DNA of 27,990 nt from a virus, in the IMG/VR virus record IMGVR_UViG_3300027752_000081, positions 1 to 27,990 of that record; one strand, 5' to 3'. The position numbers and the translations under genes are program-made. A model generated the notes under the pieces. The model was not told where the DNA came from. It searched no databases and saw only the letters and a program-made list of their open reading frames with translations. This document shows, piece by piece, positions 1 through 27,728 of this stretch. The first letter of the stretch is position 1. Each line of letters begins with the position of its first letter.

Positions 1-1587
1 ATCAGCAAAGTTAGTTACTGCAGTTAAGTTATTAGCAACTGTAGTTACATTACCTGATATCCCTGCGACTGAGGTAACATTAGAGCTAATCCCTGCAACT
101 GTTGTTACGTTAGCAGACACACCTGCGACTGTATTAATATTGGTTGCATTACCTGCTACAGATGTCACATTAGCATCTATGCCAGCTACTGTATTAACAT
201 TTGCAATATTAGTTGATACCACACCGATATCAGTAGCATCTGCTGCTACAGCATTTATATTGGTAGCATTAGCTACAACAGCATTAATGTTTGTGCTATT
301 ACCAGCAACAGAGGTTATATTACTACTAATGTCTGCTAGAGTATCCATATCACTAACAATAGCAGTTGTACCTAGAGTATTCATATCAGCTACAGCATCT
401 ACTGTACCTAATCTACCAATCTCAGTTGCCACACCAGCAACAGATGTTACATTAGTATTGTTCCCTGCTACTGTAGTAACATTACTAGAAATCCCTGCAA
501 CTGTTTGAATTGCATCTGTTGCATCAGTACCATCTTCAATATCTGCAAGGGTTTGAATGTCTGCACTAATTCCAGCTAATGTACCAATATCTGTACCATC
601 ATTAGCTACTGTAGTAACATTAGCCGCAATACCAGATACTGTACTAACAGCAGAAGATATCCCTGCTACTGTACCAATGTCTGAGCCATCTGCTGCTACT
701 GTAGTAACATCAGAAGCTATTCCAGCTACAGTTGTTACATTAGATGATACCCCTGCTACTGTAGTAACATTAGCTGAAATACCTGAAACAGTATTAATAT
801 TTGTATTGTTATTAGCAACAGTAGTTACATTAGCATTAATACCTGCCACTGTAGAAACATCAGAAGTAATACCAGCAACTGTAGTTACATTTGAAGAAAC
901 ACTTGAAACATTTGATACTGCAGAGCTTATGCCAGCTACAGTATTTACTGCACTAGATATCCCAGCAACAGTACCAATATCTGTACCATCATTAGCTACA
1001 GTTGTTACATTTGCACTTATACCAGATACAGTGGTGACATCACTACTAATACCTGCAACAGTACTAACATTAGCACTAATACCTGAAACAGTATTAATAT
1101 GTGCTTGTTCTGCTGAAGTAGGTTTAGTTGCTAACCATACTGTATTACCTAAGTCATAAACTTTTAAAGTATTACTTGTTGTATTAAAGTATAAAGCACC
1201 ATCAAGTAAAGTATTACTATCATTATCTGTTGTAGGGTCTGCACTTTTAGAACCTAAATACCTATCATCAAAGTTATCTAGTAAAGTTTCTGTATTACTT
1301 TGTGCTAATTCTGCTGCAACTTTAGCTGTAACTGCGTCAGTAGATGCAGAGACTGCTGTATTTTTTAATGCATCTAGTTGTAAAAGTGCTTGACTTGTTT
1401 GTGTATCTAAGTTTGTTTGATCTTCAGTTTGAAAGACACTACCTTGGCCTGATGATGATGCTACAGAAACAGGGCTAACAGAAGAACTAGTTGCACTAGA
1501 AGAGACAACATCTATTTGTAGTTCATCTAAAGAAGTTTCAAAAACTCCACCTTGGGAGTTGTTTGAAGAAATGGTAGGATCAGACAT
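1..1587 (-). CDS. Tail fibre protein with decapeptide repeats (3' end beyond window)
   Basis: The frame is open from the ATG at 1587 through 529 codons to the left edge with no stop, so the C-terminus is missing. A Shine-Dalgarno-like AAGGGA lies about 10 nt upstream. Residues 1-110 are Ser/Thr/Gln-rich and probably attach to the tail. Residues about 110-155 carry FDDRYLGSKSADPTTDND followed by GALYFNTTSNTLKVYD, a motif I recognise from many marine phage tail fibres. From about residue 165 to the edge the chain is almost entirely ten-residue repeats of the type NVTTVAGISS or NINTVAGNAT (30 nt period), more than 30 units with two short interruptions. Repeats of this kind in fibres are thought to form elongated rods; that fold is inference here. 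Receptor specificity would sit in the unseen C-terminus. It is the last visible gene of the minus-strand structural operon, 17 nt after the adaptor gene. Confidence 0.85.
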   Translation of the reverse strand, partial: MSDPTISSNNSQGGVFETSLDELQIDVVSSSATSSSVSPVSVASSSGQGSVFQTEDQTNLDTQTSQALLQLDALKNTAVSASTDAVTAKVAAELAQSNTETLLDNFDDRYLGSKSADPTTDNDSNTLLDGALYFNTTSNTLKVYDLGNTVWLATKPTSAEQAHINTVSGISANVSTVAGISSDVTTVSGISANVTTVANDGTDIGTVAGISSAVNTVAGISSAVSNVSSVSSNVTTVAGITSDVSTVAGINANVTTVANNNTNINTVSGISANVTTVAGVSSNVTTVAGIASDVTTVAADGSDIGTVAGISSAVSTVSGIAANVTTVANDGTDIGTLAGISADIQTLADIEDGTDATDAIQTVAGISSNVTTVAGNNTNVTSVAGVATEIGRLGTVDAVADMNTLGTTAIVSDMDTLADISSNITSVAGNSTNINAVVANATNINAVAADATDIGVVSTNIANVNTVAGIDANVTSVAGNATNINTVAGVSANVTTVAGISSNVTSVAGISGNVTTVANNLTAVTNFAD

Positions 1588-10246: not shown

Positions 10247-10626
10247 GTGTGTCCTCAAGAATAATGGGTGTACCCCGTGGGGTTACTAAGGAAAACTGTG
10301 AGATTGCTGTGTAAGCGTATGCGTATAACACACCATATATATACCCCCTCATAATATTCTAGTACCCCCCTAAAAATAAGTAGAGGCTTCTCTCTGGTCC
10401 TCTCTCTGGTACTACTAGTCAGTCAGGTAGATAGACATTAGTTACTACGAGATCATCTCTTAGAAGGTATAAGGGTAGCTCTCAGCCTATAGTTATCCCT
10501 AAAAGGAGTGCATATTAAGTTATTGCAGAGACTCTAAGGAGATATTGGTGGGGTATTGTGGAGTATCGTGAGTACCTGTGGGGAAGACAAGATCTTAAAC
10601 AAACTACTAAATACTCTCAAACTTAC

Positions 10627-10655
10627 TAGATCCACGCAAGGGCGTGTCTCTTTAA
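10627..10655 (+). repeat. Hairpin element, copy A
   Basis: This copy is TAGATCCACGCAAGGGCGTG followed by TCTCTTTAA. The core CACGC-AAGG-GCGTG makes a 5 bp stem and is followed by TCTCTTT. It matches copies at 12101 and 15805. The outer arm is GAT here rather than GAG, which weakens the extended stem. It lies 87 nt upstream of the first plus-strand gene. Confidence 0.8.
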
Positions 10656-10658
10656 TAC

Positions 10659-10702
10659 GGATAATCTCAGTGTAAGTAGTGCCTCTCTTCTGATGATTAT
10701 CC
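10659..10702 (+). other. Inverted repeat before the first early gene
   Basis: GGATAATCTCAG pairs with CTGATGATTATCC, 8 bp plus 4 bp separated by one bulged T, around a 19 nt loop. It sits between hairpin element A and the ribosome site of the first plus-strand gene. It could be a 5' leader structure or an operator for a dimeric protein. Confidence 0.55.
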
Positions 10703-10741
10703 ACTTAATTAAAATACATACTCTTAAGGAGAGTTTCAACC

Positions 10742-10927
10742 ATGATCGGATATTCAGATCACAAACAAACTATTGGGGACATCCTCAATTCATTTCCTCA
10801 TATGGATTTCCAAGAAGCATTCGAGTACAGCGAAAAGCTCGGTTGCAAATACAAATCCTACCCACAAAAACCAGCTAAAGGTACAGAGGATCCAGAGTTA
10901 GAAGCTTTATTCAACTCTGCTCCCTAA
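10742..10927 (+). CDS. Small early protein of unknown function
   Basis: A 61-residue protein and the first gene of the plus-strand arm. AAGGAG lies 9 nt before the ATG inside an 18 nt segment repeated before the membrane peptide at 11464. The product starts MIGYSDHKQTIGDILNSF and is soluble with an acidic C-terminal end. No family recognised. First-position small genes in T7-type phages often act on the host, but nothing in the sequence shows that here. A strong terminator follows at once, so it may be expressed as a separate unit. Confidence 0.75.
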   Translation: MIGYSDHKQTIGDILNSFPHMDFQEAFEYSEKLGCKYKSYPQKPAKGTEDPELEALFNSAP

Positions 10928-10941
10928 GCAAGAAAGTCTCT

Positions 10942-10976
10942 CATGCTCCCAATATAGGGGGCATGGGTGGTTTTTT
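10942..10976 (+). terminator. Terminator after the first early gene
   Basis: CATGCTCCC, a six-base loop and GGGGGCATG form a 9 bp stem with one T.G pair on the plus strand, followed after GGTGG by six T residues. The wobble pair supports plus-strand use. Confidence 0.85.
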
Positions 10977-10983
10977 AAGGTAG

Positions 10984-11012
10984 CCAACATCCCAAACCAA
11001 CATCCTAACCGA
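10984..11012 (+). repeat. Three tandem CC(A/G)ACA motifs
   Basis: CCAACATCC, CCAACATCC and CCGACA follow each other at 12-13 nt spacing directly after a terminator and just before the ribosome site of the next gene. The same motif follows the terminators at 12921 and 15684. Confidence 0.6.
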
Positions 11013-11028
11013 CACAAGGAGAGTTCAA

Positions 11029-11388
11029 ATGAACTACATTTATATAGCAAACAACAAAATGGTTACAGCAAACTCATTCAATGAACTTGCAAAGAAACTT
11101 GCTGAGGATATCAAATACAACTCCTTAGCATGGTCACAAGTATCTCTTCCAAATACAGCTTCAATTGCAAACGCTAAAAATAAATTGTTCTCCAAAGCAA
11201 ACAACGTGCTAGAAGAAAACATGCAGTCTATACTCGACATAACATTCGAGAAAGACATAGAGACTACCTCTAAAGCAAAGGTTGATGCACTATTCAGCCT
11301 ATACTTTAAGATGGTAGATGCAAAGCTAGATTGTCACCCATTATGGCATAAGGCTGTAACCCACCTTGGAGCAGAACTTCAGATTTAA
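11029..11388 (+). CDS. Early protein of unknown function
   Basis: A 119-residue, largely helical, soluble protein starting MNYIYIANNKMVTANSFNEL. AAGGAGAG lies 6 nt upstream of the ATG. It has no recognised motif, no cysteine cluster and no membrane segment. It is isolated between a terminator and a hairpin (11413-11431), so its expression may be separate from its neighbours. Confidence 0.75.
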   Translation: MNYIYIANNKMVTANSFNELAKKLAEDIKYNSLAWSQVSLPNTASIANAKNKLFSKANNVLEENMQSILDITFEKDIETTSKAKVDALFSLYFKMVDAKLDCHPLWHKAVTHLGAELQI

Positions 11389-11412
11389 ATCAATAACTTA
11401 CGAATATGAACT

Positions 11413-11431
11413 CCTTCTAGGCACTAGGAGG
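11413..11431 (+). other. Intercistronic hairpin
   Basis: CCTTCTAG, loop GCA, CTAGGAGG form an 8 bp stem with one T.G pair on the plus strand, 25 nt after the preceding stop codon. No T run follows, so it is more likely an mRNA processing or 3'-end stability structure than a terminator. Confidence 0.55.
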
Positions 11432-11463
11432 TTACTATTACCCATACTCTTAAGGAGAGTCAA

Positions 11464-11559
11464 GTGGATATGATTGACACCTTCTTCTTGAATAGCTCTA
11501 CTACTATACTCATCTATGTGGTGACTATAGTAGTGGTGTCTTACTTTCAATCACTATAA
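11464..11559 (+). CDS. 31-residue membrane peptide
   Basis: GTG start 6 nt after AAGGAG; an ATG two codons later is a possible alternative. The peptide is mostly one membrane helix, TILIYVVTIVVVSYF, preceded by MDMIDTFFLNSST. A perfect ribosome site, an exact 18 nt repeat of the leader of the first early gene, and a stop 14 nt before the next ATG support it. Function unknown; a short phage membrane peptide could alter the host envelope or a host membrane protein. Confidence 0.55.
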   Translation: MDMIDTFFLNSSTTILIYVVTIVVVSYFQSL

Positions 11560-11572
11560 AGGATTAATAATA

Positions 11573-11731
11573 ATGGAAATATGGAAAGAGAAATTCCCAG
11601 AGGTAACGTTCACTGATAAGGTAACTGTTATCTTTGAAGATGGTACGGAGCAAACAGAAAAACATTTGTTCCTTGATGAAGACCTGTCTCACATTGAGTG
11701 GTCTAAAGTTCTTAATTGCTTTGAGGTGTAA
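11573..11731 (+). CDS. 52-residue acidic protein of unknown function
   Basis: Starts MEIWKEKFPEVTFTDKVTVI and ends NCFEV. AAGGA lies 10 nt before the ATG. The alternation of charged and hydrophobic residues in VTFTDKVTVIFEDGTEQTEK suggests a small beta sheet. It ends 3 nt before the next gene, whose ribosome site GAGG lies inside its last codons. No family recognised. Confidence 0.65.
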   Translation: MEIWKEKFPEVTFTDKVTVIFEDGTEQTEKHLFLDEDLSHIEWSKVLNCFEV

Positions 11732-11734
11732 ATA

Positions 11735-11968
11735 ATGATTATATCTAAAACAAATGTCTTTACAGGCAAATATGGTCAAATGGATCTACCAATAACCATA
11801 GAACAAATCAAAGAGTGGGAAGATGGTGCTCTAATACAGAATGTCTTCCCTAATCTCACAGTTGATCAAAGAGAGTTCATAATGACAGGAACACTACCGG
11901 GGGACTTTCCTTACGATCAAGATGCTCAAGAAGCAAGCTGTGCCACAGTATCATGGGACTATATTTAA
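11735..11968 (+). CDS. Small conserved phage protein, paralogue of the gene at 19092
   Basis: A 77-residue protein with the pattern TG....M.L.IT..QI, then QNVFPNLTVDQREFIMTG and a following Leu-Pro-Gly. This matches a small family seen in many phages and plasmids (typically TG, FPxLTxxEREFxxTGxTPEEW) with no known function to my knowledge. The product of the gene at 19092 shares the same pattern, so the genome carries two diverged copies. Good ribosome site within the end of the upstream gene. Confidence 0.75.
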   Translation: MIISKTNVFTGKYGQMDLPITIEQIKEWEDGALIQNVFPNLTVDQREFIMTGTLPGDFPYDQDAQEASCATVSWDYI

Positions 11969-11981
11969 AACGAGGTATACT

Positions 11982-12083
11982 ATGACTGATTTTGAAATGT
12001 GGGCATTTGTGATAATGTTCTATAGCAGTGCATTAATCGTGTTGGTTGGTCTTGGAGCATGGTGTTTCAAGCTAATTAAATAG
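11982..12083 (+). CDS. 33-residue membrane peptide
   Basis: ATG preceded by CGAGG at 6 nt. MTDFEMW is followed by one membrane segment, AFVIMFYSSALIVLVGLGAW, and a short basic end CFKLIK. Acidic before and basic after the helix suggests an outside-N, inside-C orientation. Function unknown. The gene ends 18 nt before hairpin element B. Confidence 0.55.
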   Translation: MTDFEMWAFVIMFYSSALIVLVGLGAWCFKLIK

Positions 12084-12403
12084 TGCATATTAAAACAACT
12101 TAGTGGAGCCACGCAAGGGCGTGTCTCTTTAAAATGGAAGATCTCCAGATATCTGGTCTAAAGATTATTCTATGAGAGCAAGTCTCTCCCCACGTAGCAG
12201 TAGAATTCCGATTAAGACTTTCGGAGCGTGGGAAAAACCTGCAGAGCAAAATAGGTCTTGAGGACTGTGGTCACACCGTGAAAGTCGGCAAAGCATCTTA
12301 CGTGCTCCATGGAAATCAAGATATCAACCCAGATACTGCCAAGCAAGTCTTAGTAAGTCTGGGGAATTCTATAAATTACTTCCATTTAAACCAAGAGGAT
12401 CCT
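12084..12403 (+). promoter_or_regulatory. Long structured leader of the SSB gene
   Basis: A 320 nt stretch before the SSB start. It holds hairpin element B (12101-12132), the palindrome CCAGATATCTGG (12145-12156), a GAGAG/CTCTC hairpin (12174-12188), and CCCACG/CGTGGG (12189-12232) enclosing TCCGA/TCGGA. The SSB frame stays open upstream to about 12176, including a GTG at 12278, but no ribosome site fits there, and AGAGGA is well placed before the ATG at 12404. A long folded leader before an abundant nucleic-acid-binding protein would suit autoregulation; that is inference. Confidence 0.5.
12101..12132 (+). repeat. Hairpin element, copy B
   Basis: TAGTGGAGCCACGCAAGGGC followed by GTGTCTCTTTAA. 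CACGC-AAGG-GCGTG is the core; GAG and CTC extend the stem by 3 bp across one mismatch; TTT follows. Shared with copies at 10627 and 15805. The segment AGTGCATATTAA just upstream (12083) is also found at 10508, upstream of copy A. Confidence 0.8.
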
Positions 12404-12907
12404 ATGGAAAACATTCAAAACATCAAACGCTCATACCGAATTGATAATGTCACCCTTAATTGGGCTAAGTTAGATAAGCCGGTAAACCCATACGGTCAAC
12501 TCCAATGGGAAATGCAGATTGCTACGACAGACAAAGCTCTTGCTGAGTCCCTCTCAGAGAACCACTTCAGAGTTCAAGAGAAAGAGTCTGGCATCTTCAC
12601 CGTAAGCCTTAAGCGTAAAGCTATTAAGGTGGATGGTGAACCCAATAAGCCTGTCACTGTAGTTGGTTCAGACTTAGCTCCATTAACTGGCTCTATTGGT
12701 AATGGTAGTGTTGGTAATGTCATCGTATGGCAAAACTACTACGATAAAGCTGGTCGTCAAGGGGTTGTTTCAACTCTAACTGGTGTTCAAGTTACAGATT
12801 TAAAAGTCTATAACTCAAGCACTGCTGGCTTTGACGTAGTATCTAGTAACCCAACCACTGCTACTGCAGACGCTATTGAAGATGCTGAAGACGCACCTAT
12901 GTTCTAA
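12404..12907 (+). CDS. Single-stranded DNA-binding protein
   Basis: A 167-residue protein starting MENIQNIKRSYRIDNVTLNW. It contains KPVNPYGQLQWEMQIATTDK and then VVGSDLAPLTGSIGNGSVGN followed by VIVWQNYYD, a pattern I associate with ssDNA-binding proteins of T7-type marine phages (OB fold, gp2.5 role). The last dozen residues are acidic and end in Phe (DAIEDAEDAPMF), the classic tail used to contact polymerase and helicase. It would coat ssDNA during replication and recombination with the polymerase, helicase and exonuclease encoded downstream. Its start was set by AGAGGA before the ATG; it is followed by its own terminator and preceded by a long leader, so it is probably strongly and separately expressed. 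Confidence 0.8.
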   Translation: MENIQNIKRSYRIDNVTLNWAKLDKPVNPYGQLQWEMQIATTDKALAESLSENHFRVQEKESGIFTVSLKRKAIKVDGEPNKPVTVVGSDLAPLTGSIGNGSVGNVIVWQNYYDKAGRQGVVSTLTGVQVTDLKVYNSSTAGFDVVSSNPTTATADAIEDAEDAPMF

Positions 12908-12920
12908 CTGCAAAGTCCCA

Positions 12921-12958
12921 TGAGGCTATTCCGTACATTTCGGGGTAGCCTCAGGCAT
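12921..12958 (+). terminator. Terminator after the SSB gene
   Basis: TGAGGCTATTCCG and CGGGGTAGCCTCA form a 13 bp stem with two T.G pairs on the plus strand around a 7 nt loop. Only four T residues follow after GGCA, so termination may be partial. The motif AAACCGACAT follows at 12966. Confidence 0.7.
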
Positions 12959-12990
12959 TTTAGATAAACCGACATAGCGTAAGGAAAAAT

Positions 12991-13200
12991 ATGAAAAAAG
13001 TTACATTTCCATCTTGCAGTTCTGCCGCCATAGGTATATTAGATGCAGGTAAATCAATAGCATTAACAGAGTTTACTACAAGTGAATTTAACTACTTAGC
13101 AAATATGATCCACGAGAAACTTACGGACAGAGGGTACAAAAGCGATCACACGTTTAATTTCGATGTAATTGTTCGTTTCTCGCCAGAGTGGAAGGAATGA
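12991..13200 (+). CDS. Small protein of unknown function
   Basis: A 69-residue protein starting MKKVTFPSCSSAAIGILDAG, with AAGGA 9 nt upstream. The end reads FNFDVIVRFSPEWKE. A mixed alpha/beta small domain is likely. No family recognised. It begins the long run of tightly packed small genes between the SSB and TerS-like genes and ends 4 nt before the next start. Confidence 0.7.
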   Translation: MKKVTFPSCSSAAIGILDAGKSIALTEFTTSEFNYLANMIHEKLTDRGYKSDHTFNFDVIVRFSPEWKE

Positions 13201-13204
13201 CAAC

Positions 13205-13549
13205 ATGAATAAAGCAGTATTAATAGACCCATATGTGGGTGAAATAACAGATGTAGTAGTTGGCGATTGGAGAGACATACAAAAACTATTAAAGTGTGAT
13301 TGCTTCGGTAGTGGAGGTTACACAAAGACAAATGATGCTATCTATGTAAATGATGAAGGTCTTTATACTGAAACTATGTATGTCAAGATTCCAGATTTGT
13401 ATCCTGATCCTTATGCTGGTCGTGTATTGATCTTAGGGATGGATGAAGATGGAGACTCAGCAGATTCAAATATGTCTGCTAAAGATGTTAAAAAGATGGA
13501 GCATGAGTTTCTTAATAGTTCACAAGTGAAGGCTTTATACGCATACTAA
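13205..13549 (+). CDS. Unknown protein, possibly DUF3846-like
   Basis: A 114-residue protein starting MNKAVLIDPYVGEITDVVVG. The layout, a strand starting at the N-terminus, a helix (DWRDIQKLLKCD), a segment AIYVNDEGLY and then DPYAGRVLILGMDEDGD, resembles DUF3846-type phage proteins, in which VNEEG and a late glycine-valine strand are conserved. That match is from memory and weak. AAGGA 7 nt before the ATG at 13205 was used to choose the start over an in-frame ATG at 13169 within the previous gene. Confidence 0.65.
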   Translation: MNKAVLIDPYVGEITDVVVGDWRDIQKLLKCDCFGSGGYTKTNDAIYVNDEGLYTETMYVKIPDLYPDPYAGRVLILGMDEDGDSADSNMSAKDVKKMEHEFLNSSQVKALYAY

Positions 13550-13599
13550 TTATCTGCATACCAATAAAATTCTAAAATGATTCACAAAGGATATTAATT

Positions 13600-13887
13600 A
13601 TGACCAAACTGAAAAGAATTGGCAACAACATAGTAGAAGTGCAAACAAACAATGTCAAAATGTTATTCTCATATGAAACATGTGTAGCACTAGAAATAAC
13701 CAATTGCTCATATTATACCGAAGGTTCATACTACCCAATTGTAGTAGACGAGAACCCTGTGTGGGGAAATGAAAGTGGCATAAGTAGAACAACACATAGG
13801 CATATAAAAAAATGGTTAGAAGATCGTAACTTTACTTATATAACACATGAAAAATTTGTAGACACATTGGATGCTTTACATGATTGA
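13600..13887 (+). CDS. Conserved small phage protein of unknown function
   Basis: A 95-residue protein. It begins with LKRIGNNIVEVQTNNVKMLF, continues SYETCVALE, and later has SRTTHRHIKKWLEDRNF. The pattern FSY.T.VA...(about 30).SRTT..H..KW is one I have seen in many phage and archaeal small proteins, all without known function. AAAGGA lies about 10 nt before the ATG. Its stop overlaps the start of the next gene. Confidence 0.7.
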   Translation: MTKLKRIGNNIVEVQTNNVKMLFSYETCVALEITNCSYYTEGSYYPIVVDENPVWGNESGISRTTHRHIKKWLEDRNFTYITHEKFVDTLDALHD

Positions 13888-14065
13888 TAGTCCATACAAA
13901 AATAAAACATGGGAGTTCTTCGTAACACCCTTAGTGTTTGCAACTGCACTACTAATTAAACTTTTGGTACTCACTGCTCCAGTAGGATATGAAATAGTAT
14001 TCACAATAAGAGCATTGAGTGATGATGAATTAATGGAAATTGAGGATAACTGGGATGATTATTAA
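13880..14065 (+). CDS. Single-pass membrane protein of unknown function
   Basis: A 61-residue protein (MIDSPYKNKTWEFF) with one clear membrane segment, FVTPLVFATALLIKLLVLTA, and an acidic tail (DDELMEIEDNWDDY). It overlaps the preceding stop by 8 nt; an in-frame ATG at 13871 is the alternative start. It is too acidic at the C-terminus to look like a typical holin, and no lysis gene is adjacent. Confidence 0.6.
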   Translation: MIDSPYKNKTWEFFVTPLVFATALLIKLLVLTAPVGYEIVFTIRALSDDELMEIEDNWDDY

Positions 14066-14273
14066 CATACCTAGCATAACTAAAGAACGTGGGTACATAG
14101 AAGAACTATACGATGATAAAATTCTATCTGCAGATATTATAGAAACAATTGTAGACAATTACATGGATGTAATGGCATGGAAAGGATGGGATCCTAGCAG
14201 TATTGTAAGTGAATCAAAAATACTAACAAAAACGCTATCATGGAGTTCAAACTATAACCAAGGGGTTAAGTAA
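14055..14273 (+). CDS. Small protein of unknown function
   Basis: A 72-residue soluble protein starting MIINIPSITKERGYIEELYD. It overlaps the preceding gene by 11 nt and its stop shares a base with the next ATG (TAATG). GAGGAT lies about 9 nt before the chosen ATG; a TTG at 14040 would extend it by five residues but has no ribosome site. No family recognised. Confidence 0.65.
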   Translation: MIINIPSITKERGYIEELYDDKILSADIIETIVDNYMDVMAWKGWDPSSIVSESKILTKTLSWSSNYNQGVK

Positions 14274-14554
14274 TGGATATATCAATAGAAAAAGCAAAAG
14301 CACTATTCCTAACTGAAGTGTGCCGAAGAATCTATAATGAACACACAATGTCCCAAAATGTATATGAATCATATTCTGATGATTGCATCTATAATTTAAA
14401 ATACAAAAGCTCTTTATCAGGTTATCAACGATGTATCACAGACTTAATAGGCTGGTCTAAAGAATCTGAAGAATTCGATAACGAAATAAAAGAATTTATA
14501 AATGCATACTGTATTAACTTAACGAGGTTTCTAAAGGCTCAATCAGATGGATAA
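14273..14554 (+). CDS. Small helical protein of unknown function
   Basis: A 93-residue protein starting MDISIEKAKALFLTEVCRRI, mostly helical, with four cysteines but no metal-binding spacing. Start and upstream stop overlap as TAATG, so translation is probably coupled. No family recognised. Confidence 0.65.
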   Translation: MDISIEKAKALFLTEVCRRIYNEHTMSQNVYESYSDDCIYNLKYKSSLSGYQRCITDLIGWSKESEEFDNEIKEFINAYCINLTRFLKAQSDG

Positions 14555-14687
14555 AAGCACAGAAAACTTCCTGCTTGATATCCTTGAAGGCACAATGAAA
14601 GCTCAAATAGAACAAGCAGAAGAACTAAAAATAATGCGTAACTATATGTACCAATTTTTAACTTTGTTAACAATAAAGGAAATCTAA
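14547..14687 (+). CDS. 46-residue helical protein of unknown function
   Basis: Starts MDKSTENFLLDILEGTMKAQ and runs into a helix, IEQAEELKIMRNYMYQFLTL. It overlaps the upstream gene by 8 nt, with AAAGG 8 nt before the ATG. The next gene starts 1 nt after its stop. Amphipathic rather than membrane-spanning. Unknown function. Confidence 0.55.
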   Translation: MDKSTENFLLDILEGTMKAQIEQAEELKIMRNYMYQFLTLLTIKEI

Positions 14688-14688
14688 T

Positions 14689-14889
14689 ATGAAAACATTA
14701 CTTGATCAAATCTTTGCAAATGCAATCACCCGTAGACGTAGTAATTTGGATACAGCTGATGTTCTATTTAGACGTACAACAAATCGTTACGCACGTAAAG
14801 GTACAATGTCTAATAACAAAAGCTACTTGATGGTAGGTAGGGATGACACAACTGGAAAATTCATTTCAGTTAATCAAGCCTCTGCGTAA
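14689..14889 (+). CDS. Arg-rich small protein of unknown function
   Basis: A 66-residue basic protein (AITRRRSNLD, FRRTTNRYARKG) with AAAGGA 8 nt before the ATG. The charge suggests nucleic-acid contact, but no DNA-binding fold can be read from the sequence. Its stop overlaps the ATG of the next short gene. Confidence 0.6.
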   Translation: MKTLLDQIFANAITRRRSNLDTADVLFRRTTNRYARKGTMSNNKSYLMVGRDDTTGKFISVNQASA

Positions 14890-14975
14890 TGCTACTAAAA
14901 GCTCAAGTAGCTATAATTTCAATACTAATGCCACCAGTGGTTATCCTGTCGTTTATGTCGTTATTCGCAGGATAA
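14889..14975 (+). CDS. 28-residue hydrophobic peptide
   Basis: ATG overlaps the upstream stop as TAATG. The peptide is almost all membrane helix, VAIISILMPPVVILSFMSLF, with a central Pro-Pro. There is no separate ribosome site, so translation would be by coupling. A short frame of this kind could be chance, but the overlap and hydrophobicity match the other short membrane peptides in this operon. Confidence 0.4.
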   Translation: MLLKAQVAIISILMPPVVILSFMSLFAG

Positions 14976-15005
14976 CTACCATATCAATCAAAACAAGAGA
15001 AATAA

Positions 15006-15239
15006 ATGCCAAAAGTTCAACACACTAAAAAAGGACTAGTATTAATAGATGATTGGTATCCTGAAGATATTCATAAAGTAAGTACTGAAATACTAAAATT
15101 AAAACTAAAAGACACTGAAGTTAAAACTGTTATGTATGACATAATGAATACCTATGATGCAAACAATGGTATAAACTGGGACACCATAGAAAACTCTATC
15201 AAAAAACTATTTGATTTAAATGAACTTCAAGGAGCATAA
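15006..15239 (+). CDS. Small protein of unknown function
   Basis: A 77-residue protein starting MPKVQHTKKGLVLIDDWYPE, charged and helical. A weak AAGAGA site precedes the ATG. The ribosome site of the next gene (AAGGAG) lies in its last codons. No family recognised. Confidence 0.65.
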   Translation: MPKVQHTKKGLVLIDDWYPEDIHKVSTEILKLKLKDTEVKTVMYDIMNTYDANNGINWDTIENSIKKLFDLNELQGA

Positions 15240-15243
15240 TCAC

Positions 15244-15540
15244 ATGGTAGATTGGAATATAAAAATGTATGAAGATCTTGACGAAAACATTGATATAGCA
15301 CTAAAGAACTCAATAACAAAACTAATAAATGGTATTGATGATCTGACTTTCGATCAAATTGATACACTAGATAAAATCGTAAGTGATACTGCTGAAAAAT
15401 ATTCAGATGGTGTAAATCAACCTGATATAATTCAAGCAATTACTGCATACCAATGTTACGCAGATAAAAAACTAAAAACTGCTGTGCTTAATCATTTACA
15501 TGGTAGAGATAAATTCTACGGGGAAAGTTATGGAGAATAA
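15244..15540 (+). CDS. Small acidic helical protein of unknown function
   Basis: A 98-residue protein starting MVDWNIKMYEDLDENIDIAL. AAGGAG 9 nt before the ATG at 15244 decides the start over an in-frame ATG at 15220. Its helices carry regular Ile/Leu spacing (ITKLINGIDDLTFDQIDTLD). It overlaps the next gene by 11 nt. No family recognised. Confidence 0.65.
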   Translation: MVDWNIKMYEDLDENIDIALKNSITKLINGIDDLTFDQIDTLDKIVSDTAEKYSDGVNQPDIIQAITAYQCYADKKLKTAVLNHLHGRDKFYGESYGE

Positions 15541-15673
15541 ACCATTTCAAGTAAAATACCCCTTAACTAAAGAAGAAGCTATAGAATATATGTTCCAATA
15601 CCAATACTCTCGTGAGCGTAAAGATGGACGTACATTCAGAAACTTCTTAATACGTAAACTCGGTAAAAGATAA
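15530..15673 (+). CDS. 47-residue basic protein of unknown function
   Basis: Starts MENKPFQVKYPLTKEEAIEY and ends FLIRKLGKR; the second half is very basic (SRERKDGRTFRN). GGGGAAAG lies 5 nt before the ATG, inside the upstream gene. It is the last gene before a terminator, so it closes the small-gene operon that starts after the SSB gene. No family recognised. Confidence 0.6.
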   Translation: MENKPFQVKYPLTKEEAIEYMFQYQYSRERKDGRTFRNFLIRKLGKR

Positions 15674-15683
15674 TGACAATCTG

Positions 15684-15739
15684 GGCTATCCTTAACACTC
15701 TAACAGTGTTTTGGGTGGCCTAGATATCTTTATTTTTTT
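15684..15739 (+). terminator. Terminator closing the small-gene operon
   Basis: GGCTATCC pairs with GGGTGGCC (two U.G pairs on the plus strand), and after a TT/TT internal loop AACACT pairs with AGTGTT around CTAAC, giving 14 bp in all. A run of seven T residues follows 12 nt after the stem. Two CCGACATCCC motifs and hairpin element C come next. Confidence 0.7.
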
Positions 15740-15743
15740 ATAA

Positions 15744-15795
15744 TAACCGACATCCCAGATCTGCATCTTTTTTTCGGTAACCGACATCCCAGATC
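15744..15795 (+). repeat. Two perfect 18 nt direct repeats with the CCGACAT motif
   Basis: TAACCGACATCCCAGATC occurs at 15744 and again at 15778, a 34 nt period. The second copy is also part of a palindrome, TCGGTAACCGA. The same CC(A/G)ACAT core follows the terminators near 10980 and 12966. Confidence 0.8.
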
Positions 15796-15804
15796 AGGCA
15801 TTTA

Positions 15805-15834
15805 TAGTGGAGCCACGCAAGAGCGTGTCTCTTT
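15805..15834 (+). repeat. Hairpin element, copy C
   Basis: TAGTGGAGCCACGCAAGAGC followed by GTGTCTCTTT. Same stem as copies A and B; the only core change, G to A, lies in the four-base loop. It ends 17 nt before the ATG of the TerS-like gene, so in this copy the element borders the ribosome site. Confidence 0.8.
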
Positions 15835-15851
15835 GACAAGGAAAAAATATA

Positions 15852-16238
15852 ATGGCATTTAATCCAAAATCTTTACAAAACTTAGCACCTCAAATAACAT
15901 CTGTCGAGAAAGCTAGGGAAATGCAAAAGAAATCTGTACAATCACGTATGGCTAATAGAGAAGCAAGAGAAAGACTTAAGCTAACAGCTGCAGAGATGAA
16001 AGTCGATGTAGATGAACTAACTAATGAAGTGTCTGCTGTTGGTTGTTTAAAAGTTCTTTTAGTTAAATATATGCAAGAGGGTGAGTATGATGAGGCGGCA
16101 AAGATAGCTACAACCTTAGCTGAGTTTGAGACTCCAAAACTTGCACGAGTCGATCAAACAAATACAGAAATATCCACTGAGGAACTATCTGATGATGAAC
16201 TTAACAACAAACTCAGAGAACTTGGATTTAAAAATTAA
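15852..16238 (+). CDS. Putative terminase small subunit
   Basis: A 128-residue helical, charged protein. The N-terminus (NPKSLQNLAPQITSVEKARE) and basic helix (SRMANREARERLKL) resemble small proteins annotated as TerS in T7-type marine phages, as does the end (FETPKLARVDQ, then TEELSDDELNNKLRELGF). TerS recognises genome DNA for packaging and recruits TerL. If correct, it is far from TerL and on the other strand. AAGGA lies 9 nt before the ATG, and hairpin element C directly precedes it. An alternative is an unrelated DNA-binding protein. Confidence 0.4.
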   Translation: MAFNPKSLQNLAPQITSVEKAREMQKKSVQSRMANREARERLKLTAAEMKVDVDELTNEVSAVGCLKVLLVKYMQEGEYDEAAKIATTLAEFETPKLARVDQTNTEISTEELSDDELNNKLRELGFKN

Positions 16239-23940: not shown

Positions 23941-25590
23941 ATGAACGCAATTGATGAAACCACACGGTGTGTTAAGAGACACCAACCTTGTGAAGATTGT
24001 ATGAGTAGTGATGCTCTTGCAACTTACAATGATGGACACAGTTATTGTTTTAGTTGTATGAAGTATACCCCGTCAACAGAAGGACAAGACATGGGAGCAG
24101 CAGTTATAGAATTTACAGATAGGAATACCGCAGAGTCAATAGGAAGTATATCTACTTACAGTAGCTACCCTATGTCTTCTAGAGGTATTAATAAAGAGAC
24201 AATTGATTACTTCAATGTTAAGATGAGTGTTAACGAGGATGGCTCTCCAGAAGCACACTTCTACCCATACACACACAAGGGTAAAATCATTGCGTATAAG
24301 AAACGAACACTGCCTAAAAACTTTTCAACTGTAGGTAAGTTTAATAATGTAGAATTGTTTGGGCAGTCACAAGCATCTGCATCAGGTGGTCAGAAATTAA
24401 TTATTACTGAGGGTGAGATAGATTGTTTAGCTGTTGCTCAATCTATGTATGAAAAATACAATAAGTATTACTCAGTAGTTAGTATACCTTCAGCATCTCA
24501 GACTAAATCTATTTTAGAAAACAGAGACTTTGTACGTAAGTATAAAGAAGTTGTCTTGATGTTTGATCAGGATGATGCTGGTGCAAAAGCAGTCGAGCAA
24601 GCTGCTAAGATTATTGGTATAGATAAAGTAAAAGTAGCCTCCTTCAACTTCAAAGATCCTTCTGAACTATACGTAGCAGAGGGTAAAGAGGGGGTGCTAA
24701 ATGCAGTATGGAATGCATCAAGTTATAATCCTGCTGGTATCCTTACAGGTGAGTCCATTTGGTCCCACTTTAAGGATAGGCAAAACGCTCAGAGTGTTCC
24801 ATACCCTGACTGTTTAAATGGACTCAATGAAAAATTAGGAGGTATGCGTCATGGGGAGATTACTTTATTTACTTCTGGTACTGGGAGTGGTAAAAGTACT
24901 GTTATTAAAGAGATCGTTCTGGACATTCTTAAACGAACAGACGATAAGGTTGGCCTCATATCTCTTGAGGAATCTGTCGGTGACACTGCAGAAAAGTTCA
25001 TTGCTATGCAACTGCAACGTCCACTACAAGGAGAACATCCTTTATCGGATGAGGAACTCAGAGATGGGTTCAACTCAGTATTCGGTGATGAACGCCTTGT
25101 ATTACTTGATCATCAAGGATCTGTCAGTGACGCTTCTCTCTTGGACAAGATTGAATACATGGCACTTATGGGGTGTAAGTATTTGGTCCTTGATCATATT
25201 ACAATTGCAGTATCTGAAGGAGCAGCTGGACTCACTGGTAACGAAGCTGTCGATAAAGTAATGTCAGATCTTCTTAAGATTGTTAAGAAGCACAACGTGT
25301 GGTTAGGTCTTGTATCTCACTTACGTAAAGCTATGGGTGGTAAGTCATTTGAAGAAGGTCATCTTGCATCTATTGATGACATCAAAGGATCAGGTTCAAT
25401 TAAACAAATTAGTTTTGACATCATTGCATTTGCTAGAAATGTAGTAGCTGAATCACCAATAGAACGTAACACTATTAAACTGAGAGTGTTAAAAGCAAGA
25501 TTCACAGGTTTCACAGGAGACTGTGGTACATCTGTGTACAATCCTAAGACAACACGCTTGTCTGTTGGAGGTCAATTCGATTATACTTGA
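23941..25590 (+). CDS. Primase-helicase (T7 gp4-like)
   Basis: A 549-residue bifunctional protein, close to T7 gp4 (566). The zinc finger has C17, C20, C36 and C39, the same numbering as in T7 gp4. The TOPRIM primase has LIITEGEIDCLA and VLMFDQDDAGAKAVEQAA. The RecA-type helicase has Walker A SGTGSGKST (about residues 312-320), Walker B YLVLDHITI, motif H3 LGLVSHLRKAMGG, SIDDIKGSGSIKQISFDIIA, and the Arg-finger region KARFTGFTGDCG. It makes primers and unwinds the fork in 5'-3' direction with the family A polymerase. AGAGGACA precedes the ATG. Confidence 0.95.
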   Translation: MNAIDETTRCVKRHQPCEDCMSSDALATYNDGHSYCFSCMKYTPSTEGQDMGAAVIEFTDRNTAESIGSISTYSSYPMSSRGINKETIDYFNVKMSVNEDGSPEAHFYPYTHKGKIIAYKKRTLPKNFSTVGKFNNVELFGQSQASASGGQKLIITEGEIDCLAVAQSMYEKYNKYYSVVSIPSASQTKSILENRDFVRKYKEVVLMFDQDDAGAKAVEQAAKIIGIDKVKVASFNFKDPSELYVAEGKEGVLNAVWNASSYNPAGILTGESIWSHFKDRQNAQSVPYPDCLNGLNEKLGGMRHGEITLFTSGTGSGKSTVIKEIVLDILKRTDDKVGLISLEESVGDTAEKFIAMQLQRPLQGEHPLSDEELRDGFNSVFGDERLVLLDHQGSVSDASLLDKIEYMALMGCKYLVLDHITIAVSEGAAGLTGNEAVDKVMSDLLKIVKKHNVWLGLVSHLRKAMGGKSFEEGHLASIDDIKGSGSIKQISFDIIAFARNVVAESPIERNTIKLRVLKARFTGFTGDCGTSVYNPKTTRLSVGGQFDYT

Positions 25591-25598
25591 GGACACAT

Positions 25599-27728
25599 AT
25601 GAGTTTAGATAACGTGACGGGGTACTTAGTTGCTAAGATAGGCAGCAAAGGTAAACCCTCAGTTGGAGTAAGCATACTGAAAGGGTATGGGAACATACGT
25701 CCTCATCTCTTTCAGCTATCTCTAATAGCACTTGATAGTATCATTGCTTTAATAACTAAGAACAACCCTCCCTCAGATCCTGCAGGGATATCAAAGCTAA
25801 CCTTCGTATCCTCACGTATTGGATCAGAAGTTGCAAGCAGGTTATTCGATAGCCCATTAGAGTGGAAGAACGCTGTAAGGCTAGGAGATCTCTTTGTAGA
25901 GGCGTTCTACCAACTAGGCTACATTGATATTAAGTATCCTAAAATAAGAGACAGCAGCTACACTGTGGAGTTCACAGCCTTAGGTCTAGAGTTCATTAAT
26001 GAGATGCCTGAATCCCTAGATCCTTATCGACTACGTGGCACAGTGTTTGAAGAGCCACAAGAAATAAACACATTGATCCAGAAGCACCCATTGTTAAAAG
26101 GATTAGACAGCAGATACCCAATCGTTAAAGGTTGGGGAGTTCCTGAAGCTACTTGCTTTCTAGCTATGAAAGATTTACCATGCATCAAGGCTGCAAATAA
26201 GTTACAACAAACAGCATGGAAAATTAATGATAAAGTTTTAGAAGCAGTCTTAGAAGTAGACATGCAAGATGAGATTGATTCTTGTGAGGATGAACTAGAA
26301 AAAGAAAGATTAAAATCTAAACAACTTAAACTATCATACACTAAACGTAAAGCAAAGGTGTTACAAGGTACTGCATTCTATCAGCTATTAGATTTTGATT
26401 ACAGAGGTAGGATATATTACAGAGAAAGTATATTAAACTTTCAAGGTTCAGATTATGAACGTGGTTTATTTTTATTTAATGAATCAAAAGTAGTTGATGA
26501 TAAGGGACTACGTTGGCTTAAGATACATGCGGCTAACTCATTCAATGCATCTTATGATATTCAAAACTTACCTGTCTGGATTACGTCAGATTATAAAACC
26601 TATCTACAAAAACAAGGATTAGAAACAATATCTGTTGATAAAATGACACTCAATGATAGAGCGTTGTGGACTGAGAACAACATGGATATGATTGAAATGG
26701 TTTCTTATTTTAATTCTTTAGCAGAATGTGAAAAGCCTGTGTCTTTCTTAGCTGTTGCACATGAACTGGTAAGGTACTACATGTTTACATCTGGTGGGTT
26801 AGATTACTTTTCTTCCCTACCCATACCTATAGATGGTGCTAACAATGGGTGGCAACACTTAGGTGCTATCTCTAAAGACTATAGAACTGGTGAGTTAGTA
26901 GGTCTAGTCCCTGTAGAAATACCAAAAGATTTCTATGTTCAAACTGCTAGTAAGCTAATAGAACTTACTAAAGATAAAGAACGATTAGAGATCTTAAACA
27001 AAATGCCTATGAAGAAAATTAGAAAAGGTATTAGTAAACGTGGTAGTATGACTAGAGCTTACTCTGCTGGTGCTCAGAAGATTGCAGAAAACATGATCAA
27101 TGATCTACGTAAAGAAGGTTATGATACAGAGTATGGTATCACAGAGAAACACTGTAAAGGATTCTCACACGATCTAGTAAAAGCAATTGCTGCAGTATGC
27201 CCTGGACCCTTAGAAACTATGAAGTACCTACAGAGGACAGCACAAAGAGTCCTAGAGTATGGTGAGAATAGTATCTCTTGGATAACACCCTCTGGTTTTT
27301 ACGTGCATTATGAAAAGTATTATGAAAGACAAGAGAAAGTTAAAGGTACTATTGTTGGAGTAGGTAAGAGAGATCAAGTGTATCATGTGGGTTTAGTTGT
27401 ATCTGATAGACCAGACCCTAGAGGATTTGCATGTGGTATATCACCTAACTATATACACTCATTAGATGCTAGCCACATGGCTAAAGTTATTGATGCATGG
27501 GATGGAGAGTTTGGTGCAGTACACGACAGCTTCTCTACACATGCTTGTGATGTGGATAAGTTATGTCTATTAACTAAGCGTGTCTTTATTGACATGTATG
27601 ATTACGATAATTACTTTGACATGATAGAAAGAAGTATCATTAATGATGTTGAAGTAACTGTACAACAACCTACATTAGGTTCATTAAATATTAAAGAGGT
27701 AATAAAAAGTGAGTATTTCTTCTCGTAA
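25599..27728 (+). CDS. Single-subunit DNA-directed RNA polymerase (T7-like)
   Basis: A 709-residue phage RNA polymerase. Core motifs are DFDYRGRIYY (DxxGR, near residue 268), IPIDGANNGWQHLGAISKD (motif A, Asp near 412), KRGSMTRAYSAGA (motif B, Lys and Tyr near 480) and VHDSFSTHACD (motif C, Asp near 642). The C-terminus SLNIKEVIKSEYFFS matches the foot of T7 RNA polymerase (ends DFAFA). It is about 170 residues shorter than T7's 883, mostly in the N-terminal promoter-binding part, so promoter melting or recognition may differ. TGAGGACA lies 5 nt before the ATG; the TTG at 25587 is less likely. Unlike T7 it is encoded near the end of the arm, not first. Confidence 0.95.
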   Translation: MSLDNVTGYLVAKIGSKGKPSVGVSILKGYGNIRPHLFQLSLIALDSIIALITKNNPPSDPAGISKLTFVSSRIGSEVASRLFDSPLEWKNAVRLGDLFVEAFYQLGYIDIKYPKIRDSSYTVEFTALGLEFINEMPESLDPYRLRGTVFEEPQEINTLIQKHPLLKGLDSRYPIVKGWGVPEATCFLAMKDLPCIKAANKLQQTAWKINDKVLEAVLEVDMQDEIDSCEDELEKERLKSKQLKLSYTKRKAKVLQGTAFYQLLDFDYRGRIYYRESILNFQGSDYERGLFLFNESKVVDDKGLRWLKIHAANSFNASYDIQNLPVWITSDYKTYLQKQGLETISVDKMTLNDRALWTENNMDMIEMVSYFNSLAECEKPVSFLAVAHELVRYYMFTSGGLDYFSSLPIPIDGANNGWQHLGAISKDYRTGELVGLVPVEIPKDFYVQTASKLIELTKDKERLEILNKMPMKKIRKGISKRGSMTRAYSAGAQKIAENMINDLRKEGYDTEYGITEKHCKGFSHDLVKAIAAVCPGPLETMKYLQRTAQRVLEYGENSISWITPSGFYVHYEKYYERQEKVKGTIVGVGKRDQVYHVGLVVSDRPDPRGFACGISPNYIHSLDASHMAKVIDAWDGEFGAVHDSFSTHACDVDKLCLLTKRVFIDMYDYDNYFDMIERSIINDVEVTVQQPTLGSLNIKEVIKSEYFFS

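Follow-up and report, generated by a model that had tools for sequence, protein, structure and literature searches.

Putative template-strand hairpin promoters of early genes in a group of marine phages outside the Schitoviridae

Work on how an RNA polymerase recognizes an extruded DNA hairpin has dealt essentially with a single system, that of phage N4, and a search of the open literature found such hairpin promoters described for N4-like phages only. The N4 promoters P1, P2 and P3, located at positions 95, 564 and 4553 of the genome, ahead of gp1, gp2 and gp15, each consist of a hairpin followed by TTAT or TTTT and a GG, which lies 10 nt past the loop in all three cases. The virion RNA polymerase of N4 (vRNAP) contacts a purine at position -11. 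These promoters act in the template strand and contain a sheared G:A pair in the loop (PMC4496689), and the virion polymerases of N4-like phages are free of cysteine, a property that has been linked to passage through the tail and the periplasm (PMC3715699).

The DNA analyzed here (hereinafter, the window) is an entire IMG/VR record of 27,990 bases that represents a genome fragment. Its minus strand carries late genes (tail fibre, major head protein, scaffold, portal and TerL), and its plus strand carries small early ORFs and the genes for a single-stranded DNA-binding protein (SSB), DNA polymerase, exonuclease, NrdB, NrdA, ThyX, MazG, a primase-helicase and a T7-like RNA polymerase. The tail fibre gene (positions 1-1100, minus strand) contains imperfect 30-nt (10-aa) repeats. 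On the plus strand, the hairpin CCACGCAAGGGCGTGTCTC occurs exactly at 10632-10650 and 12109-12127, and a third hairpin, at 15813-15831, carries a single substitution, a loop G replaced by A (Table 1); a fourth copy was not found in the window with up to three mismatches allowed, and the number of copies expected by chance in shuffled sequence is 0. An earlier note on this DNA had described three plus-strand copies whose only core change falls in the loop, a description that holds, although the coordinates it gave (10627, 12101 and 15805) are those of a TAG just upstream of the hairpins proper. Also as described there, the inner stem CACGC/GCGTG is identical in 3/3 copies, and GAG/CTC extends the stem in two of them; these are copies 2 and 3, in which a single C-T mismatch separates the inner and outer parts of the stem. 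When folded as DNA, the template strand of copies 1-3 yields -6.3, -8.8 and -9.0 kcal/mol, respectively (z from -3.8 to -4.8), and is more stable than the sense strand.

All three hairpins are intergenic, being located, in agreement with the same note, ahead of the first early gene, the SSB gene and the ORF that it called TerS-like, a 128-aa product for which no family match over a curated cut-off was detected. Copy 3 lies 21 nt upstream of this ORF, and copy 2 lies 277 nt upstream of the likely SSB start, which we place at ATG 12404 rather than at GTG 12278 because the homologues begin at this ATG. Copy 2 is thus separated from the SSB gene by a non-coding leader of ~275 nt (12128-12403), which is long also in two relatives (L009 and L012).

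Table 1. Coordinates of the hairpins, motif 2 and adjacent genes in the window, and examples of the second RNA polymerase gene in relatives
Feature	Coordinates	Strand	Details
Motif 2, CCTAAAAGGAGTGCATATT	10498..10516	+	~130 nt upstream of hairpin copy 1; conserved in L009, L013 and L014
Hairpin copy 1	10630..10660	+	CACGC 10633-10637, loop AAGG 10638-10641, GCGTG 10642-10646, T-rich stretch, GG 10659-10660 (candidate +1)
First conserved early ORF	10742..10927	+	61 aa; 64% identical homologue in L009; downstream of copy 1
Motif 2, CCTAGAAGGAGTTCATATT	11403..11421 (11412)	-	Points towards terminase and late genes; conserved in L009 and L013
Hairpin copy 2	12106..12137	+	GAG, C-T mismatch, CACGC-AAGG-GCGTG, CTC; GG 12136-12137
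Single-stranded DNA-binding protein	12404..12907	+	Gp2.5-like, weak match; downstream of copy 2
Hairpin copy 3	15810..15841	+	GAG, C-T mismatch, CACGC-AAGA-GCGTG, CTC; GG 15840-15841
Conserved 128-aa ORF ('TerS-like')	15852..16238	+	Downstream of copy 3
T7-like single-subunit RNA polymerase	25587..27728	+	713 aa, 9 Cys
Second polymerase, L087	4054-7440	-	Unannotated before
Second polymerase, L098	8066-11794	+	Unannotated before
Second polymerase, L072	8975-12586	-	Unannotated before

An exact-pattern search of viral contigs for the window hairpin retrieved two contigs only, which come from a single sample and are nearly identical to the window. Relatives were retrieved through the DNA polymerase, and this search, proposed as a check in the earlier note, located hairpins at the same places: the gene order is kept, and the elements precede the first early gene, the SSB gene and the TerS-like gene, with an extra hairpin ahead of the primase/RNAP cluster in three relatives. 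Each genome has 2-5 copies, all of them on the early strand. Four copies each are present in L018, L019 and L024, as well as in a 55-kb record (G001; 4/4 on the early strand). Both loop and stem sequences differ between clades. The closest relative with the stem of the window (L012) has GAGCCACGCAAGCGTGTCTCTTTAATAAGGAGA, and the loops of other clades are as varied as AA, CCAAGA (L035 and L037, five copies per genome), ACAAG (L049 and L065) and ACAGG (L074), with ATCC/ATTC in L028 and TTC/TAC in L014; one genome has the N4 P1 hairpin unchanged. A strict perfect-stem family finder detected no clear hairpin excess apart from the GCAAGC and CCAAGA clades, outside of which it is unfit as a negative control, having missed interrupted stems. 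A motif of a different kind, AACCGACA(T), often with a terminator-like sequence nearby, recurs in non-coding spacers of the window (10984, 12970, 15744 and 15778) and in L014, L049, L062 and L078.

In a small test on new genomes, fetched through the polymerase and limited to two (the remaining ones lacked the early region), G026 yielded two ACAAG-type elements on the early strand, found with the pattern of that clade, and G023 yielded four copies of TTGTGTTGCTTCGCAACCCAA between TerL and SSB. The inner hairpin of the latter, GTTGC-TTC-GCAAC, is N4 P1 letter for letter, and its build is that of the window element, namely 5 bp, a Py·Py mismatch and 3 bp. These four copies form an array (L139; G023 57665-57823) with spacings of 45, 68 and 45 nt.

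The structure of the hairpin family is kept while the paired bases vary. In an alignment of 23 elements, for which 500 shuffles and slid versions served as controls, 75% of the cells are paired vs 57.5% in shuffles, 29 cells are changed on both sides vs 12.7, and the covariation score is 0.368 vs 0.107±0.022 (0/500 shuffles), exceeding all slid versions. Given that the elements are kin, the shuffle control alone overstates significance, and the argument rests on the slid control and on differing stems inside single genomes: the three copies of L030 have three stems (ACCG/CGGT, CTCG/CGAG and GTCG/CGAC), and several different Watson-Crick-paired stems surround one CCAAGA loop within individual genomes. 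Because the two sides of a stem vary in concert, including between copies of the same genome, it is the fold that is kept; the three inner stems of the window itself are identical. Near-symmetrical sites repeated ahead of early genes could also be palindromic operators for a dimeric DNA-binding regulator, but the half-sites differ between copies in one genome yet stay complementary, their spacing shifts by 2 nt between the window and L012, and the asymmetric loop and the 3' flank are conserved, all of which renders this explanation very improbable. Conservation of the loop and flank is also unneeded in intrinsic terminators closing the upstream unit, to which the hairpin plus TCTCTTT of the window bears some similarity; the stem is just 5 bp and the T run 3, many copies in relatives, including those of L009 and L010, have no T run, and the terminator-like sites of the window at 10940 and 27915 are stronger than the hairpins and different in appearance, such that a terminator function is highly unlikely.

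The mismatches bear on which strand folds. At nine stem positions counted outward from the loop in all elements, the sense strand has 298 Watson-Crick, 53 Py·Py, 5 A·C, 4 G·T and 0 Pu·Pu cells. Members of a clade are not independent in this count, but the pattern is seen, at differing positions, in five or more clades. A sense C·T corresponds to a template G·A, so that the template-strand mismatches are of the G·A type, and the preponderance of sense Py·Py over Pu·Pu suggests that the working hairpin is probably template-strand DNA rather than sense RNA. Tandem TC/TC on the sense strand is tandem GA/GA on the template strand, a known stable sheared arrangement; the elements of L009, L030 and L014 show weak DNA folding under standard energies, which may under-credit tandem G·A motifs. 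Location between transcription units, along with T-rich sequence after some copies that a simple scan calls terminator-like, would fit hairpins with a function in the sense RNA, where they could direct processing or antitermination, affect stability or serve as attenuators at the borders between genes. The mismatch asymmetry, the rarity of G-U cells in the sense strand (4/360), the T-less copies of relatives and the absence of any match in an Rfam search with the elements all speak against such a role, which would also leave unexplained the near-constant distance to a downstream G[G/A] described below, and we regard it as quite unlikely; the RNase III-type site and the attenuator listed in the earlier note are disfavoured by the same strand asymmetry.

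Downstream of the elements, an AT-rich stretch is followed by G[G/A] at a near-constant place. A GG, which the earlier note does not mention, occurs 18-19 nt past the loop in 3/3 copies of the window (10659, 12136 and 15840), that of copy 3 overlapping a ribosome-binding site; G[G/A] is found at this distance in 10-11 of the 12 copies of the window's clade and at 16 nt in the L049 and L074 clades (6/6 and 10/11 copies). The position of the G is less regular in L018-type genomes, and no clear GG position was found for the four copies of G023. On sequence grounds, the GG is a candidate for the +1 of transcription.

The T7-like enzyme is the sole polymerase encoded in the window and is kept in all hairpin-bearing relatives, and a GG start would suit an enzyme of this type; the hairpins could thus be its promoters, which corresponds to the 'promoter of the phage RNA polymerase' of the earlier note. 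However, T7-type enzymes read double-stranded sequence, which leaves the compensatory stem changes unexplained, and the T7-like enzyme appears to have a better candidate promoter, including that of the late genes, in motif 2 (YCTA[TAG]AAGGR..ATAT; CCTATAAGGG-type). Motif 2 is present on both strands, near TerL and TerS, and also points towards late genes, whereas hairpins were detected on the early strand alone; it was identified in the window, L009, L013, L014, L035, L049, L062, L065 and L074, and an exact-pattern search of seven further records did not detect it. Furthermore, no hairpin family was found in Roseobacter phage CRP-7, the nearest named phage (TerL 61%, RNAP 36% identical, similar gene order), which has a T7-like enzyme. 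Hence it is unlikely that the T7-like enzyme reads the hairpins, and the earlier note probably had the wrong enzyme, given that a polymerase of the virion module in relatives fits better. Separately, CRP-7 (MK613349.1) contains three TATAGTCC..ATTAAAAGG-like copies at 2027, 7148 and 14765, one of these just before the RNA polymerase gene, and this motif is a likely phage promoter.

The virion-module enzyme, a second single-subunit RNA polymerase, is encoded in the majority of relatives with contigs long enough to cover its locus, where the gene closes the structural (late) module and is convergent to the T7-like polymerase gene. In an alignment (A1) of 18 second polymerases, all single-subunit polymerase motifs are present (in L087 numbering, QGFNGR with R504, YIDGKTNG with D656, K740-xxx-M744-xxx-Y748-G749 and IYDAFK with D951), and the equivalents of T7 R425, D537, K631, Y639 and D812 are invariant. 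PHROG 414 matches one member (3e-7), and an AlphaFold model (pLDDT 73, pTM 0.71) matches the T7 RNAP fold (E 4e-16) and, in a fold search of viral models, several Schitoviridae virion polymerases, e.g., that of phi50-12 at 5e-14. An hhalign profile comparison with N4 gp50/mini-vRNAP gave a probability below 1%, with no significant match, and neither a PDB profile search nor a tblastn search of named phages produced a match; in CRP-7, a second polymerase was not detected, and the protein at the corresponding place has no polymerase motif. Cysteine is absent from 15/18 second polymerases and occurs once in 3/18 (about 1,200 aa), and the T7-like enzymes contain 7-13 Cys in about 710 aa. The neighbouring large proteins of the late module are nearly Cys-free too, so that Cys depletion marks the whole ejection module rather than the polymerase alone. 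The window contig stops just before the place of this gene, and no contig overlapping its right end was found with a 21-nt exact pattern; the phage presumably carries the gene beyond the contig end. Gene position, the basis of this assignment, suggests packaging of the second polymerase into the virion and its injection, and it may well be the enzyme that reads the hairpins. The hairpin classes follow the trees of both polymerases, and given that the two genes share much of one tree, this co-variation alone cannot point to the reader enzyme.

We consider it likely that the window hairpins are early promoters read as template-strand DNA hairpins by a virion-carried, injected RNA polymerase, and among the four options of the earlier note the 'hairpin promoter' is the best supported. 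Under this scenario, a single-subunit RNA polymerase in the virion would enter the cell along with the genome and recognize the fold, the loop and the closing bases of the hairpin in the template strand. Transcription would start at the GG ~18 nt downstream of the loop and proceed rightward through the first early genes, the SSB gene and the genes for replication. The T7-like polymerase, translated from this early RNA, would in turn use a different, double-stranded motif of the CCTATAAGGG type, which occurs on both strands and in part faces the late genes. Absence of the hairpins before late genes, which the note would have taken as refutation, does not count against them because N4-type early hairpin promoters are not expected there.

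We further lean towards the view that an uncultured marine group outside the Schitoviridae has its own virion-injected single-subunit polymerase with template-strand hairpin promoters, in which the loop and the spacing diversified by clade. If so, an N4-type system either spread and diverged far past the N4 relatives or arose twice. Such a lineage, a second one beside that of N4, diverse in sequence and rich in natural promoter-polymerase pairs, would allow comparative tests of the recognition code, of what G·A pairs and spacing contribute, and of how virion polymerases originated, and would add a previously unannotated polymerase of marine phages and possible orthogonal polymerase-promoter pairs.

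Compared with known systems, the elements resemble T7-type promoters (Autographiviridae) in the presence of several copies per genome, a phage single-subunit polymerase and a G start. They differ in that T7-type promoters are double-stranded motifs without a conserved hairpin, with 23 bp conserved in T7 from -17 to +6, whereas here the sequence varies, with compensation in the stems, and the fold is kept. By the features compared, the hairpin phage group is not a member of the N4 family (Schitoviridae). The stem of the window consists of 5 bp, a mismatch and 3 bp, with a 4-nt loop (2-6 nt in other clades); the GG lies about 8 nt further from the loop than in N4, where transcription starts 11 nt from the loop centre; and the template-strand loop is CCTT/TCTT, rather than 3 nt with a central purine (-11) and a G at -8, the N4-kind 3-nt loop being found only in the L014 and G023 elements. 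The second polymerase has 1.1-1.3 kaa vs 3.5 kaa in N4 gp50, the T7-like enzyme is a single chain vs the heterodimeric RNAPII of N4, and the records of the group, up to about 60 kb, are another difference. The group shares with N4 P1-P3 a hairpin (formed by the template strand in N4 and probably also here) in few copies on the early strand only, a T-rich spacer followed by GG, and placement at early units including the first gene. In the relatives, the second polymerase combines the catalytic motifs of single-subunit polymerases with scarce Cys (0-1) and, like gp50, is encoded at the end of the late module beside ejection proteins. Further likenesses to N4 are the exact P1 hairpin in G023, a GAA loop in L014 and GGAT/GAAT template-strand loops in L028.
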